The notes beneath the pieces were generated by a model. The model saw only the letters and a program-made list of their open reading frames with translations, did not search any database and was not told the DNA's origin. A program made the position numbers and the translations under genes. A stretch of DNA of 5,631 nucleotides from NCBI GenBank assembly GCA_014191535.1, contig BJHC01000105.1:1-5631 (forward strand). Reading direction: 5' to 3'. The first letter of the stretch is position 1. Each line of letters opens with the position of its first letter. The stretch comes from Cyanobium sp. GTDB taxonomy: Bacteria; Cyanobacteriota; Cyanobacteriia; PCC-6307; Cyanobiaceae. Shown here in pieces: positions 4,068 through 5,605 of the stretch.

Positions 4068-4184
4068 TCAAAGGGCCCAGCAGCGTTCGAGACGCTGGCG
4101 CAGCTGGACATGCCGCAACCTTGCCTGCAGCTGCCAGAGCTTCAGGCCGACCATCAGCACAAACAGGACCCGGGCTGCGAGCAC
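4068..4184 (-). CDS. LERxW single-pass membrane microprotein, copy 1 (38 aa)
   Basis: This is a tiny predicted membrane protein, recognisable because it resembles two other small proteins in this window. A hydrophobic helix (about residues 2-19, core VLFVLMVGLKLW) is followed by an arginine-rich stretch and the terminal RQRLERCWAL. Its FVLMVGLKLWQL aligns without gaps to FAVGAAIKFWRL of the protein at 4897-5073, and LERCW matches LERIW in both relatives. The basic C-terminal side predicts an N-out/C-in orientation. The start is taken as GTG 4184, which lies 10 nt after the stop of the upstream micropeptide; ATG 4154 is in frame but would remove part of the helix. Its stop faces the stop of the ynfA-like gene. 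Function is unknown; being short and GTG-initiated, it is supported mainly by the paralogy and cassette context. Confidence 0.6.
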   Translation of the reverse strand: MLAARVLFVLMVGLKLWQLQARLRHVQLRQRLERCWAL

Positions 4185-4194
4185 AGGGACAGGC

Positions 4195-4326
4195 CTATTT
4201 CTTGCCGCCTTCCAGGTTGGTGTCCGAACCGTTCTGATGGCCGTTCAGGTGCTTCTCGCAGGCGTGGCTGGTGCTGCCGCCCAGCAGGCACAAAGCAGCA
4301 ACGGCGAGGGGCAGCAGGCGGCGCAT
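4195..4326 (-). CDS. Exported micropeptide with EGGKK tail, copy 1 (43 aa)
   Basis: An ATG-initiated 43-residue peptide. It has a textbook short signal peptide: MRR n-region, hydrophobic core LLPLAVAALCLL, and a signal peptidase I site SHA|C after residue 22. The predicted mature peptide is only 21 residues, hydrophilic, with one cysteine at its first position (C23), two histidines and the tail NLEGGKK. Compare the 45-residue peptide at 5073-5210: same start (M[RK]RLL), same cleavage position 22, cysteine(s) at the mature N-terminus and EG[GA]KK at the end. No lipobox is present (SHAC lacks the -3 Leu), so it is probably a soluble exported peptide rather than a lipoprotein. The GGAAGG in the tail codons could also serve as ribosome-binding sequence for the downstream membrane microprotein. 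Function is unknown. Confidence 0.68.
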   Translation of the reverse strand: MRRLLPLAVAALCLLGGSTSHACEKHLNGHQNGSDTNLEGGKK

Positions 4327-4346
4327 GAACAGAGTTCCGTTGCCCG

Positions 4347-4430
4347 CAGCCTATGGAGGCTGTCCCGTGGACGCCAGGGTCCGTTGCCGAATGCCCACCG
4401 CAGTCGCGGTCGGCGGGCCCCCCACGGGAC
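4347..4430. repeat. Nested inverted repeats in the divergent gap of cassette 1 (candidate structured leader)
   Basis: Several perfect inverted repeats are packed into 84 bp: CAGCCT/AGGCTG (4347-4352/4357-4362, 4-nt loop); an outer pair GTCCCGTGG/CCACGGGAC (4362-4370/4422-4430); and inside it ACCGC/GCGGT (4397-4401/4406-4410, loop AGTC), with GGAC/GTCC and GCCGA/TCGGC as further options. On the minus strand this would be the 5' leader of the micropeptide at 4326, with the first hairpin 20 nt before its ATG. There is no U-tract, so an intrinsic terminator is unlikely. In GC-rich DNA some chance pairing is expected; the 9-bp outer stem is the strongest element. The rest of the gap (4327-4511) shows no gene. 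Confidence 0.45.
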
Positions 4431-4499
4431 GGCTCCGTGAAGAGTGATTGAGGCGCAGAGCGACCCCGCCCCAGTGGATCCAAAGTGGAAGAAATCCTG

Positions 4500-4506
4500 A
4501 AGGAGG
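4500..4506 (+). promoter_or_regulatory. Strong Shine-Dalgarno AAGGAGG fixing a GTG start at 4512
   Basis: AAGGAGG is a perfect Shine-Dalgarno sequence, 5 nt before GTG 4512. It decides the start of the cysteine protein over the longer in-frame GTG at 4485. It is the only near-perfect ribosome-binding site seen in the window. Confidence 0.75.
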
Positions 4507-4511
4507 CTGTC

Positions 4512-4700
4512 GTGTTCGGAGTGTGGTCGCGCAAGTGCGGAGAGTGCGCCAACTATTCCGGGTGCGTGGATTCCCAGGGGTTGTGCCGCGTGTGGGGCAC
4601 GTTGATCGCCTCGGCCTCGTCGCTGCCAGGGCAGTGCCCCCATTGGACCAGCCGCGAGGCGGTGGCGGTGAGTGGCCCGGGGGCTTCCCTGGGCTCCTGA
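4512..4700 (+). CDS. Small cysteine-rich (zinc-knuckle-like) protein, copy 1 (62 aa)
   Basis: A 62-residue protein of no named family that I recognise. Cysteines lie at C9, C12, C18, C25 and C42. The CGEC pair (9-12), then C25-x16-C42-x2-W45 (QCPHWTSRE), gives a four-cysteine layout like a small zinc knuckle or iron/redox site; metal binding is inference. There is no signal peptide or membrane segment, so a cytosolic location is likely. The same layout, CxxCxx[FY]...C-x16-CxxW followed by RE, recurs in the protein at 5348-5605, so the two are probably paralogues. The start is GTG 4512, chosen for the AAGGAGG five bases upstream; GTG 4485 would add nine residues. It is divergent from the micropeptide at 4326 and convergent with the membrane microprotein ending at 4727. 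Confidence 0.72.
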   Translation: MFGVWSRKCGECANYSGCVDSQGLCRVWGTLIASASSLPGQCPHWTSREAVAVSGPGASLGS

Positions 4701-4711
4701 GCGGGCTGCTG

Positions 4712-4723
4712 GCGGCTTGCCGC
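4712..4723. terminator. Possible short bidirectional hairpin between convergent cassettes
   Basis: GCGG-CTTG-CCGC forms a 4-bp GC stem (extendable to GCGGC/GCCGC with a 2-nt loop) just beyond the stops of the convergent genes ending at 4700 (+) and 4727 (-). It lacks a T-tract on either side, so terminator function is only a guess from its position. Confidence 0.2.
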
Positions 4724-4726
4724 GGT

Positions 4727-4897
4727 TCAGGGCTGCTTTGCCCAGATCCGTTCAAGGCTCTTGCGGAAGGCTCTCTCGTTCAAGGGCCGGGCCAGGTCGC
4801 GCCTACGAAGCGTGCTGCCGATCCACCAAACCTGCAGACCGCCAAAGGCCAGGGCGAAGAGACCCAGTTGGAGGTATCCCGCATTCAGGTGCTCCAT
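4727..4897 (-). CDS. LERxW single-pass membrane microprotein, copy 3 (56 aa)
   Basis: A 56-residue predicted membrane protein. A hydrophobic helix spans about residues 8-27 (YLQLGLFALAFGG then LQVWWIG). A basic juxtamembrane patch TLRRRD and the C-terminal helix ending RKSLERIWAKQP follow. Positive charges after the helix predict N-out/C-in. The helix-end W and the LERIW motif (48-52) are shared with the neighbour at 4897-5073 (LERIW 47-51) and with the 4068-4184 copy. Its ATG at 4897 shares one base with the TGA of the upstream gene (TGATG), which implies translational coupling and supports the start directly. It is the last gene of a three-gene minus-strand mini-operon. The function is unknown. 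Confidence 0.72.
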   Translation of the reverse strand: MEHLNAGYLQLGLFALAFGGLQVWWIGSTLRRRDLARPLNERAFRKSLERIWAKQP

Positions 4898-5073
4898 CAC
4901 ACCGCCTGCTGATCCCGCTCCCAGATCCGCTCCAGCGTCTGTCGTGAGTGTTCTGTGCTGGTGGGGATGCCCGTTTGCTGCCTGCGGAATGGGGAGGTCA
5001 GGCGCCAGAACTTGATGGCAGCGCCCACGGCGAACACCCCCCAAGGCACCAGCATCCATGCGGGATGAGGCAT
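4897..5073 (-). CDS. LERxW single-pass membrane microprotein, copy 2 (58 aa)
   Basis: A 58-residue predicted membrane protein with one hydrophobic segment (about residues 6-23, containing MLVPWGVFAVGAAIKFW), then a basic PFRRQQ patch, a polar linker and the conserved C-terminal TLERIWERDQQAV. The segment FAVGAAIKFWRL aligns gap-free to the 38-residue copy 1, and LERIW is identical to copy 3, so the three form a small paralogous family. Its ATG at 5073 overlaps the TGA of the upstream micropeptide as TGATG, and its own TGA overlaps the ATG of the next gene in the same way. A longer open frame upstream (to 5442) in this phase crosses the micropeptide and the intergenic region and is not credible. 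The function is unknown. Confidence 0.74.
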   Translation of the reverse strand: MPHPAWMLVPWGVFAVGAAIKFWRLTSPFRRQQTGIPTSTEHSRQTLERIWERDQQAV

Positions 5074-5210
5074 CACTTCTTGGCGCCTTCCTGGGGTGCT
5101 GCTGCGTTGGGGCTCCCATCCTTCATGCCACCGCAGCAACATTCGGCGTTGGCCATCGTGCCCGTCAGCACGGTTGCAGCAGCGAGAGCGAGCAGGAGCA
5201 GGCGCTTCAT
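5073..5210 (-). CDS. Exported cysteine micropeptide with EGAKK tail, copy 2 (45 aa)
   Basis: An ATG-initiated 45-residue peptide. The signal peptide has an MKR n-region, a hydrophobic core LLLLALAAATVL and a signal peptidase I motif ANA|E after residue 22. The mature product would be 23 residues, opening with a striking triple cysteine (ECCCGGMKD, C24-C26) and ending PQEGAKK. The clustered cysteines suggest metal binding, disulfide or thioether chemistry, but this is inference. It shares length, cleavage position and tail with the 43-residue peptide at 4195-4326; the last six sense codons of the two genes are 15/18 identical in DNA. Its stop overlaps the start of the next gene (TGATG). There is no clear Shine-Dalgarno sequence; a palindrome sits immediately upstream (5218-5235). 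Confidence 0.7.
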   Translation of the reverse strand: MKRLLLLALAAATVLTGTMANAECCCGGMKDGSPNAAAPQEGAKK

Positions 5211-5217
5211 GGGTTTT

Positions 5218-5235
5218 GTGATCTTTAAAGGTCAC
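5218..5235. promoter_or_regulatory. 18-bp near-perfect palindrome just upstream of the micropeptide 2 start
   Basis: GTGATCTTTAAAGGTCAC is palindromic at 16 of 18 positions, centred on TTTAAA, and ends 7 bp before the ATG at 5210 on the minus strand. It could be an operator, or an RNA hairpin occupying the position normally used for a Shine-Dalgarno sequence. It is unlike a CRP site (half-site spacing 10 rather than 6) and unlike an NtcA site. Confidence 0.4.
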
Positions 5236-5297
5236 GGTAGGTGCGCCATCTGCCTTCGGCGACTGCCCTTGCAGCGATCGGGGCTTCAACGGATCGC

Positions 5298-5335
5298 TTG
5301 ACCACCAGCGCCATCGCGAGTAGTACAGGCGTACT
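5298..5335 (+). promoter_or_regulatory. Sigma70-type promoter with an overlapping LexA-box-like palindrome
   Basis: TTGACC (5298-5303, 5/6 to -35) and TAGTAC (5321-5326, 3/6 to -10) are separated by exactly 17 nt, predicting initiation near 5333, 15 nt before the ATG at 5348. Overlapping the -10 is the perfect inverted repeat AGTAC-AGGC-GTACT (5322-5335). The published cyanobacterial LexA consensus (from Anabaena) is RGTACNNNDGTWCB; this site matches at all specified positions except D, which is C here. A repressor bound there would block this promoter; the divergent operon starts 112 bp away. SOS control is a hypothesis. Confidence 0.5.
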
Positions 5336-5352
5336 TGCTTGATCGCGATGGC
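5310..5352. repeat. 10-bp perfect inverted repeat surrounding the LexA-like site
   Basis: GCCATCGCGA (5310-5319) and TCGCGATGGC (5343-5352) are perfect inverted repeats with a 23-nt spacer, and the spacer itself contains the AGTAC/GTACT palindrome. The right arm includes the ATG at 5348, so in any transcript starting upstream of 5310 the start codon would be base-paired. From the predicted start near 5333 the left arm would be absent and the ATG free. Confidence 0.6.
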
Positions 5353-5605
5353 TGATGCGCGCCCGGTCGGAGTGGCTGAGGAGTGGGGGTACCTGGATGG
5401 GGGTGTGTTGCGACCGGCCCGCACCGGTGCCGTCTGCATCACCTGCCAGCACTTTCGCTACGAGGTCGGCAGTCAGTGCGTCACCGTGCTCACCTGTCCG
5501 ATTCACCAGGGCTTGATTCCTCAGGGCGAGCACCTCACCAAGCGGTGCCGTCAGTGGATGGCCCGACGGGAGCTGGCGGTGGGCTGGTGCCCGGAGGTGG
5601 GCTGA
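5348..5605 (+). CDS. Small cysteine-rich (zinc-knuckle-like) protein, copy 2 (85 aa)
   Basis: An 85-residue protein of no named family that I recognise. Its cysteines are C30, C33, C44, C50, C67 and C81. The core CITCQHF (30-36) ... C50-x16-C67-x2-W70 (RCRQWMARRE) repeats the layout of the 62-residue protein at 4512-4700, with four extra residues between the CxxC pair and the third shared cysteine. An N-terminal extension of about 20 residues and a C-terminal AVGWCPEVG are specific to this copy. There is no signal or membrane segment, so a cytosolic protein with a structural zinc or iron/redox site is the likeliest reading, by inference. ATG 5348 is preferred over TTG 5339; there is no Shine-Dalgarno sequence, but the predicted leader is only about 15 nt. 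It is divergent from the three-gene operon starting at 5210. Confidence 0.75.
   Translation: MADARPVGVAEEWGYLDGGVLRPARTGAVCITCQHFRYEVGSQCVTVLTCPIHQGLIPQGEHLTKRCRQWMARRELAVGWCPEVG

Follow-up and report, generated by a model that had tools for sequence, protein, structure and literature searches.

Among the described systems that come closest to the locus studied here, TisB is a small membrane toxin induced in the DNA-damage (SOS) response, and the colicin-like layout consists of an SOS-induced bacteriocin with a divergently encoded membrane immunity protein. The locus lies in a 5,631-nucleotide (nt) stretch of DNA from Cyanobium sp., here called the window, which is contig G000:C105 in the draft genome of a Cyanobiaceae-type organism (439 contigs, 1.94 Mb in total, completeness 84%, contamination 5.9%). 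It carries seven small genes, A1, B1, C1, B2a, B2b, A2 and C2, the last of which encodes a four-cysteine protein and is predicted from its upstream sequence to be an SOS gene repressed by LexA. A study of the cyanobacterial LexA regulon gave the consensus operator as AGTACWNWTGTACT, with recA, lexA and umuCD among the predicted targets (PMC3091678; Li, Xu and Su 2010). The operator of C2 is the same as this consensus, while C2 is not named in the parts of the main text that were covered. The second point of contact is the DUF1651 (PF07864) family, whose genes are reported to belong to the host response to cyanophage infection (PMC5490813), and which stands behind C2 in 21 of 96 copies; the parts of that paper considered here connect DUF1651 with phage infection but say nothing of LexA, and C2 itself has no Pfam family. 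In the open-licence papers searched no link of the C2 family or of DUF1651 to LexA was found.

The window resembles the systems with TisB-type toxins in that both contain short proteins and one of these stands under a LexA-type operator. The difference is that C2 is soluble-looking and cysteine-rich, while the B proteins, which are the membrane proteins of the locus, are without the operator sequence (the box) in 73 of 74 cases. The TisB type of SOS-induced membrane toxin was rejected, as the box was present on the membrane gene in only one of the 74 B upstream regions. Regarding an antisense RNA antitoxin, the window gave no Rfam match at gathering thresholds, a search which an undescribed RNA could escape. 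The elements that define the C2 transcription unit are the following.

5348-5605, plus strand: C2, predicted SOS gene for a four-cysteine protein with the pattern CxxC-x16-C-x16-CxxW; alternative start TTG at 5339
5322-5335, plus strand: LexA-type operator AGTACAGGCGTACT, an inverted repeat AGTAC-N4-GTACT
5298-5326, plus strand: predicted C2 promoter, with TTGACC at 5298-5303, a 17-nt spacer, and TAGTAC at 5321-5326 overlapping the operator

To define how the box is associated with C2, a set of 96 copies of the gene, 73 intact and 23 broken, was scored for sites matching in at least 10 of 12 positions. The data showed that 78 of the copies had the box, which was present before 71 of the 73 intact copies versus 7 of the 23 broken ones (Fisher p 5e-11, which is only a guide because the copies are related). 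A tally by genome and genus, covering 91 of the 96 copies with the other 5 counted apart, placed intact boxed C2 in 44 of the 49 genomes holding copies and in 27 genera, with up to six intact copies per genome. The box was found before none of 125 other genes of the same loci and in none of 29 C1 upstream regions, in addition to the single B case mentioned above, and among seven scored A upstream regions it was present only at the A2 gene of the window, which shares its spacer with C2. Sites like AGTACAGGCGTACT were absent from all 200 shuffles of the window. When 59 distinct C2 upstream regions were aligned on the site (from 77 boxed ones, 18 of which had too little sequence 5′ of the box), a sharp core, CTAGTACA..(T)GTAC, emerged between unconserved flanks. 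The operator of the window overlaps the predicted −10 hexamer TAGTAC, located 17 nt after TTGACC; a TTGAC element at a spacing of 17-18 nt was present in only 14 of the 59 upstream regions, and hence was dismissed as a general feature of C2.

The presence of the cognate repressor was also examined. A strong match to LexA was obtained in 24 of 25 genomes and a weak one in the other (G043), and the genome of the window encodes LexA (G000 C55, L236) with a self-box, GGTACAAATGTATT. A self-box with at least 9 of 12 matches was observed in 22 of 24 lexA upstream regions. Exact scans of complete relatives found the same pattern before recA-like and umuD-like genes, and two of the five exact AGTACNNNNGTAC sites in the genome of the window belong to C2 copies. 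Because the box precedes 71 of 73 intact copies, is nearly absent from the controls, and LexA is encoded, C2 is predicted to be a DNA-damage gene, whose box is co-conserved with its integrity. The initial annotation of this DNA, which was made from the sequence alone, had overlooked the LexA-type operator, the strongest regulatory clue at the locus.

Several further observations concern LexA-type boxes at other genes. A second small-protein family (SPYAVFRAxDW ... QGELF or QGDLF) starts directly behind such boxes, located near position 1501 in each of the loci L216 (C123 in the genome of the window), L292, L293, L299, L294 and L188; its C-terminal pentapeptide resembles a sliding-clamp binding motif. 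In L287 and L297 a frame similar to this family lies between the box and C2. Exact boxes also precede a gene reading as dprA in L209, L210 and L296, and a third cysteine protein (CLYCDKF...C...CNSW, 88 residues; L211, about 1231-1494) starts 8 nt from a LexA-type box.

The remaining features of the locus are as follows, with the four-cysteine genes and the peptide and membrane-protein genes on opposite strands.

4195-4326, minus strand: A1, predicted exported-peptide gene with a nearly invariant mature part
4068-4184, minus strand: B1, a short relative of B with 38 residues, retained next to A1 in genome G009
4485-4700, plus strand: C1, second four-cysteine family, CxxC-x12-C-x16-CxxW, tail-to-tail with B2a and without a LexA box
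4727-4897, minus strand: B2a, predicted small membrane protein with an LERxW tail
4897-5073, minus strand: B2b, predicted small membrane protein with an LERxW tail, TGATG overlap with B2a
5073-5210, minus strand: A2, peptide of 45 residues that is predicted to start with a signal sequence, overlapping B2b as TGATG
4397: end of DNA homology with G009, with C1, A2-B2b-B2a and C2 all located rightward

The open-reading-frame listing placed all seven frames at the positions given by the initial annotation, and a codon score derived from the long genes in related loci picked all of them, C1 only weakly (5 bits). Relatives of C2 were detected in 50 of 99 genomes, corresponding to 50 of the 61 Cyanobiaceae and none of the 38 genomes outside this family. 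Relatives of B were detected in 42 of the 99 genomes, every one of them Cyanobiaceae, those of C1 in 25, including two weak matches outside Cyanobiaceae, and those of A in 13. The pairwise ratios of nonsynonymous to synonymous substitution rates (dN/dS) were 0.08-0.41 for C2, B2a and B2b, 0.21 for the single C1 pair, and 0.39-0.54 for A1. The comparison of B1 with its 38-residue counterpart in G009 gave 11 residue-changing codons out of 38, and 11 silent ones, which suggests that the constraint on B1 is mild. Hence, the relatives elsewhere and the codon changes indicate that the seven small genes are real, and the view that the three kinds of protein are families under protein selection is borne out. 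None of the seven proteins gave a Pfam or NCBIfam match above the curated cut-off. The label "galactose oxidase" on the record of one relative (P0051) was discarded, as it does not fit the length of 87 residues.

The minus-strand genes A2, B2b and B2a have the features of a single operon. In the window the stop and start codons of A2 and B2b overlap as TGATG, as do those of B2b and B2a. The order B2b then B2a was observed in nine distinct loci, with the TGATG overlap in five, and the order A, B2b, B2a of the window is also present in L140 (Cyanobium usitatum Tous). Because of the overlapping frames and the same order in L140, A2-B2b-B2a is read as one operon, which is probably translationally coupled. 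Average identity within the A1 group is 91% over the 21 mature residues versus 59% over the signal part (17 chosen sequences, with four divergent ones set aside); this stronger conservation of the mature part CEKHLNGHQNGSDTNLEGSKK (window 4195-4326; L337 1501-1629) is unusual for a secreted 21-residue peptide. Two other observations were made near B genes. A repeated small frame, NLRGQTLLFRCLETGF..., is located upstream of B in L093, L100, L101 and L114, with a CxxC-H-C tail in L101 and L114 and no Pfam match, and in L119 (Cyanobium sp. T1B-Tous) B2b-B2a lies 0.6 kilobases (kb) from a gene reading as lexA (7825-8177, 8806-9414).

The locus had been described as a tandemly duplicated set of three genes, which was proposed to be kept by selection on the set. 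The comparison with G009 contradicts the duplication. In G009 the A1-B1 pair is present next to the same left-hand genes as in the window, and the DNA homology, 82% over 1710 columns, ends at 4397, just upstream of A1; C1, A2-B2b-B2a and C2 are missing, and a different long frame occupies their place. The three-gene duplication is rejected because G009 has A1-B1 without C1 or the second cassette, and also because C1 and C2 are two families, distantly related at most: they failed to retrieve each other in iterated searches, and their resemblance was detected only at the profile level (hhalign probability 80.5). The accompanying idea that all components are paralogous between the cassettes holds for A1 and A2, which are connected via intermediate sequences, and for B1, which is matched by the B profile (E-value 3.3e-4), but for C1 and C2 it does not go beyond this profile-level resemblance. 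C1 is positioned tail-to-tail with B2a in the window and in two other genomes (L101 and L125), which makes its assignment to the right-hand block no weaker than one to A1. These data suggest a better partition, into a resident pair A1-B1 and a second block consisting of C1, A2-B2b-B2a and C2. The junction at 4397 may be an assembly join.

The linkage of the four-cysteine genes with A and B was measured in other genomes. The divergent order of the families, recurrence of which had been named in the initial annotation as a check on its proposal, was indeed observed elsewhere: C2 has a divergent B or A gene no more than 1.5 kb away in seven genomes (the window, G004, G014, G019, L114, L123 and L128), and C1 has a divergent A or B gene no more than 0.3 kb away in three (the window, L082 and L066), or four when L104 is included, where the divergent partner of C1 is a B fragment at a distance of 1 kb. 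These divergent pairs have about five different sets of flanking genes. Both C2 and B are present in 34 genomes, and in 11 of them a pair is located within 3 kb, versus about 0.45 pairs expected if the genes were independent; three of the 11 (G012, G020 and G023) have the same arrangement and so do not count as independent cases, and the orientation varies. On the other hand, a B match was present at a distance of up to 4 kb for only 12 of 113 C2 matches. The link between C2 and B is therefore real but loose. As an observation on these sites, type I restriction-like and transposase-like genes break or flank the B and C2 sites in L103 (5753-10000), L096 (5746-8900), L104 (5290-6183) and L095 (5960-6100).

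We consider it probable, at about 0.78, that C2 is a LexA-repressed SOS gene and that the divergent A2-B2b-B2a genes are a separate, coupled envelope operon sharing only the spacer with it. LexA would occupy the box and keep C2 silent until damaged DNA activates RecA and thereby the self-cleavage of LexA, upon which C2 would be made in a burst. The separate nature of A2-B2b-B2a is likely because L140 has open frames for A-B2b-B2a together with a mere remnant of C2 and a decayed box at the aligned position; broken copies of C2 beside kept A or B genes were also observed in L100, L123 and L128. The LexA-type switch would thus be a property of C2, and not of A and B. The original proposal that the exported peptide, the membrane proteins and the cysteine protein are regulated together as a single functional unit, and are retained as such, seems improbable on these data. 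The selection on the families, the recurrence of the divergent order in seven genomes with several sets of flanking genes, and the linkage of C2 and B above chance agree with it, but most C2 copies have no A or B nearby, C2 decays beside intact A and B genes, nearly all B genes are without the box, and A1-B1 occurs without C1 in G009. A much stronger competitor, to which we give somewhat less than an even chance, is that the adjacency of C2, C1 and A/B comes from hitchhiking in variable gene islands, with no joint action of the genes, whatever regulates C2. The neighborhoods hold differing mixes of these genes with EamA-like, restriction-like and transposase-like genes, as expected in such a case, but the divergent order of C2 and B recurs with different flanking genes. 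Hitchhiking would not conflict with the SOS control of C2 in the preferred explanation.

Two other explanations would change the role of the palindrome or of C2. It is very unlikely that a repressor other than LexA binds the palindrome; this alternative draws on the fact that LexA binding is here predicted only, and on the self-boxes of lexA (9-10 of 12), which are weaker than the C2 boxes, while it is countered by the identity with the consensus as published in the covered parts of PMC3091678 and by the box before recA-like and umuD-like genes. Slightly less probable still, C2 could by analogy with the colicin-like layout be an SOS-induced bacteriocin, with the divergent membrane protein providing immunity. 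The box on a soluble gene and the membrane protein without a box on the opposite strand would fit this layout, but most C2 copies have no B nearby, C2 lacks a signal sequence, and the window showed no lysis gene next to C2.

Several observations weigh against the explanation of C2 as an SOS gene that shares only its spacer with A2-B2b-B2a. The box is missing from two intact C2 copies (L022 and L178), and two lexA upstream regions (L235 and L241) have no good box. In another study the expression of genes with a predicted LexA box rose with mitomycin C in only 15 of 27 and 10 of 46 cases, according to the parts of the paper covered (PMC3744912), so a LexA box by itself is not proof of induction; that paper also has a mitomycin C-induced unnamed gene, sync1474/SYNW1405, which might or might not be C2. 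Additionally, L128 retains A together with part of the box, and in both L128 and the window the box is located about 125 nt before A, and for these reasons some effect of the box on A2 is possible. The binding of a metal by C2 is proposed from the cysteine spacing alone. Finally, at the copy in the window no DUF1651 gene, recombinase or tRNA is visible, the contig ending 26 bases past C2.

In 60 aligned C2 sequences C30, C50, C67 and W70 are invariant, and C33 is nearly so. This pattern suggests a bound metal, and C2 might use its four cysteines to hold zinc or an iron-sulfur cluster, which is much less sure than its regulation. The high-potential iron-sulfur protein and the small subunit of 4-hydroxyphenylacetate decarboxylase share a CxxC...C...CxxW/F cysteine layout with the four-cysteine proteins. 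When the C1 profile was compared with the PDB, the decarboxylase subunit, an iron-sulfur protein, ranked first among the relevant hits (E-value 0.45) and the high-potential iron-sulfur protein second (E-value 0.72), both not significant and thus no more than a hint, while the C2 profile retrieved neither of them. The high-potential iron-sulfur protein family was rejected as an assignment, given these values and the lack of a Pfam match.

The surroundings of C2 copies elsewhere may in part be integrative elements. The 21 DUF1651 genes lie 3′ of C2 on the same strand, 19 of them within 90 nt (one representative was checked with Pfam), and, viewed from the other side, six of 15 DUF1651 matches in five genomes are directly behind a full C2 and one is behind a C2 fragment. 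In 14 larger regions, which were chosen by hand, DUF1651 follows C2 in 10, a recombinase-like gene precedes C2 on the same strand in six, and a tRNA gene lies beyond the recombinase-like gene in three: Lys (L308), Met (L311) and Pro (L320). One of the recombinase seeds was just below the Pfam cut-off, and the other had no Pfam match. A Rad52-type gene is upstream of C2 in six loci, and a helix-turn-helix gene, below the cut-off, in five. The Pfam-checked neighbors are the representatives of genes around C2, including DUF1651, SLOG and the recombinase seeds, together with LexA; the names of the large neighbors (ynfA, pgm, alr, prfA, glyQ, argJ, lpxB-like, EamA, recA and umuD), as well as dprA, restriction and transposase names, were read from the sequences. 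The second C2 in the genome of the window (L002, C43) is boxed; a SLOG cluster4 gene (PF18306) comes immediately after it, and DUF1651 lies about 0.5 kb further on. The phage, plasmid and viral-contig collections searched contained no C2, and so these collections give a phage-borne origin of C2 no support.

Given these arrangements, C2 and DUF1651 are a candidate for an SOS operon carried by integrative elements. C2, in many copies together with DUF1651, could act in the DNA-damage or phage response of such elements, and copies like the one in the window could have settled in the chromosome from them; both steps are much less sure than the control by LexA. The full form of this proposal, in which C2-DUF1651 is an SOS-triggered operon of picocyanobacterial integrative elements, encoding a four-cysteine effector and its partner that respond to DNA damage or phage replication, and in which the C2 switch was recruited beside the A/B operon at chromosomal sites like the window, is tentative, and we regard it as rather doubtful. 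If true, it would explain the rise of DUF1651 in cyanophage infection.

The LexA-controlled damage response of picocyanobacteria has many targets of unknown function. With the present data a multi-copy hypothetical family, boxed in 27 genera, can be assigned a predicted trigger and a conserved operator, with DUF1651 as a frequent partner in the operon, and hence the C2 family becomes testable for DNA-damage induction and for LexA binding.

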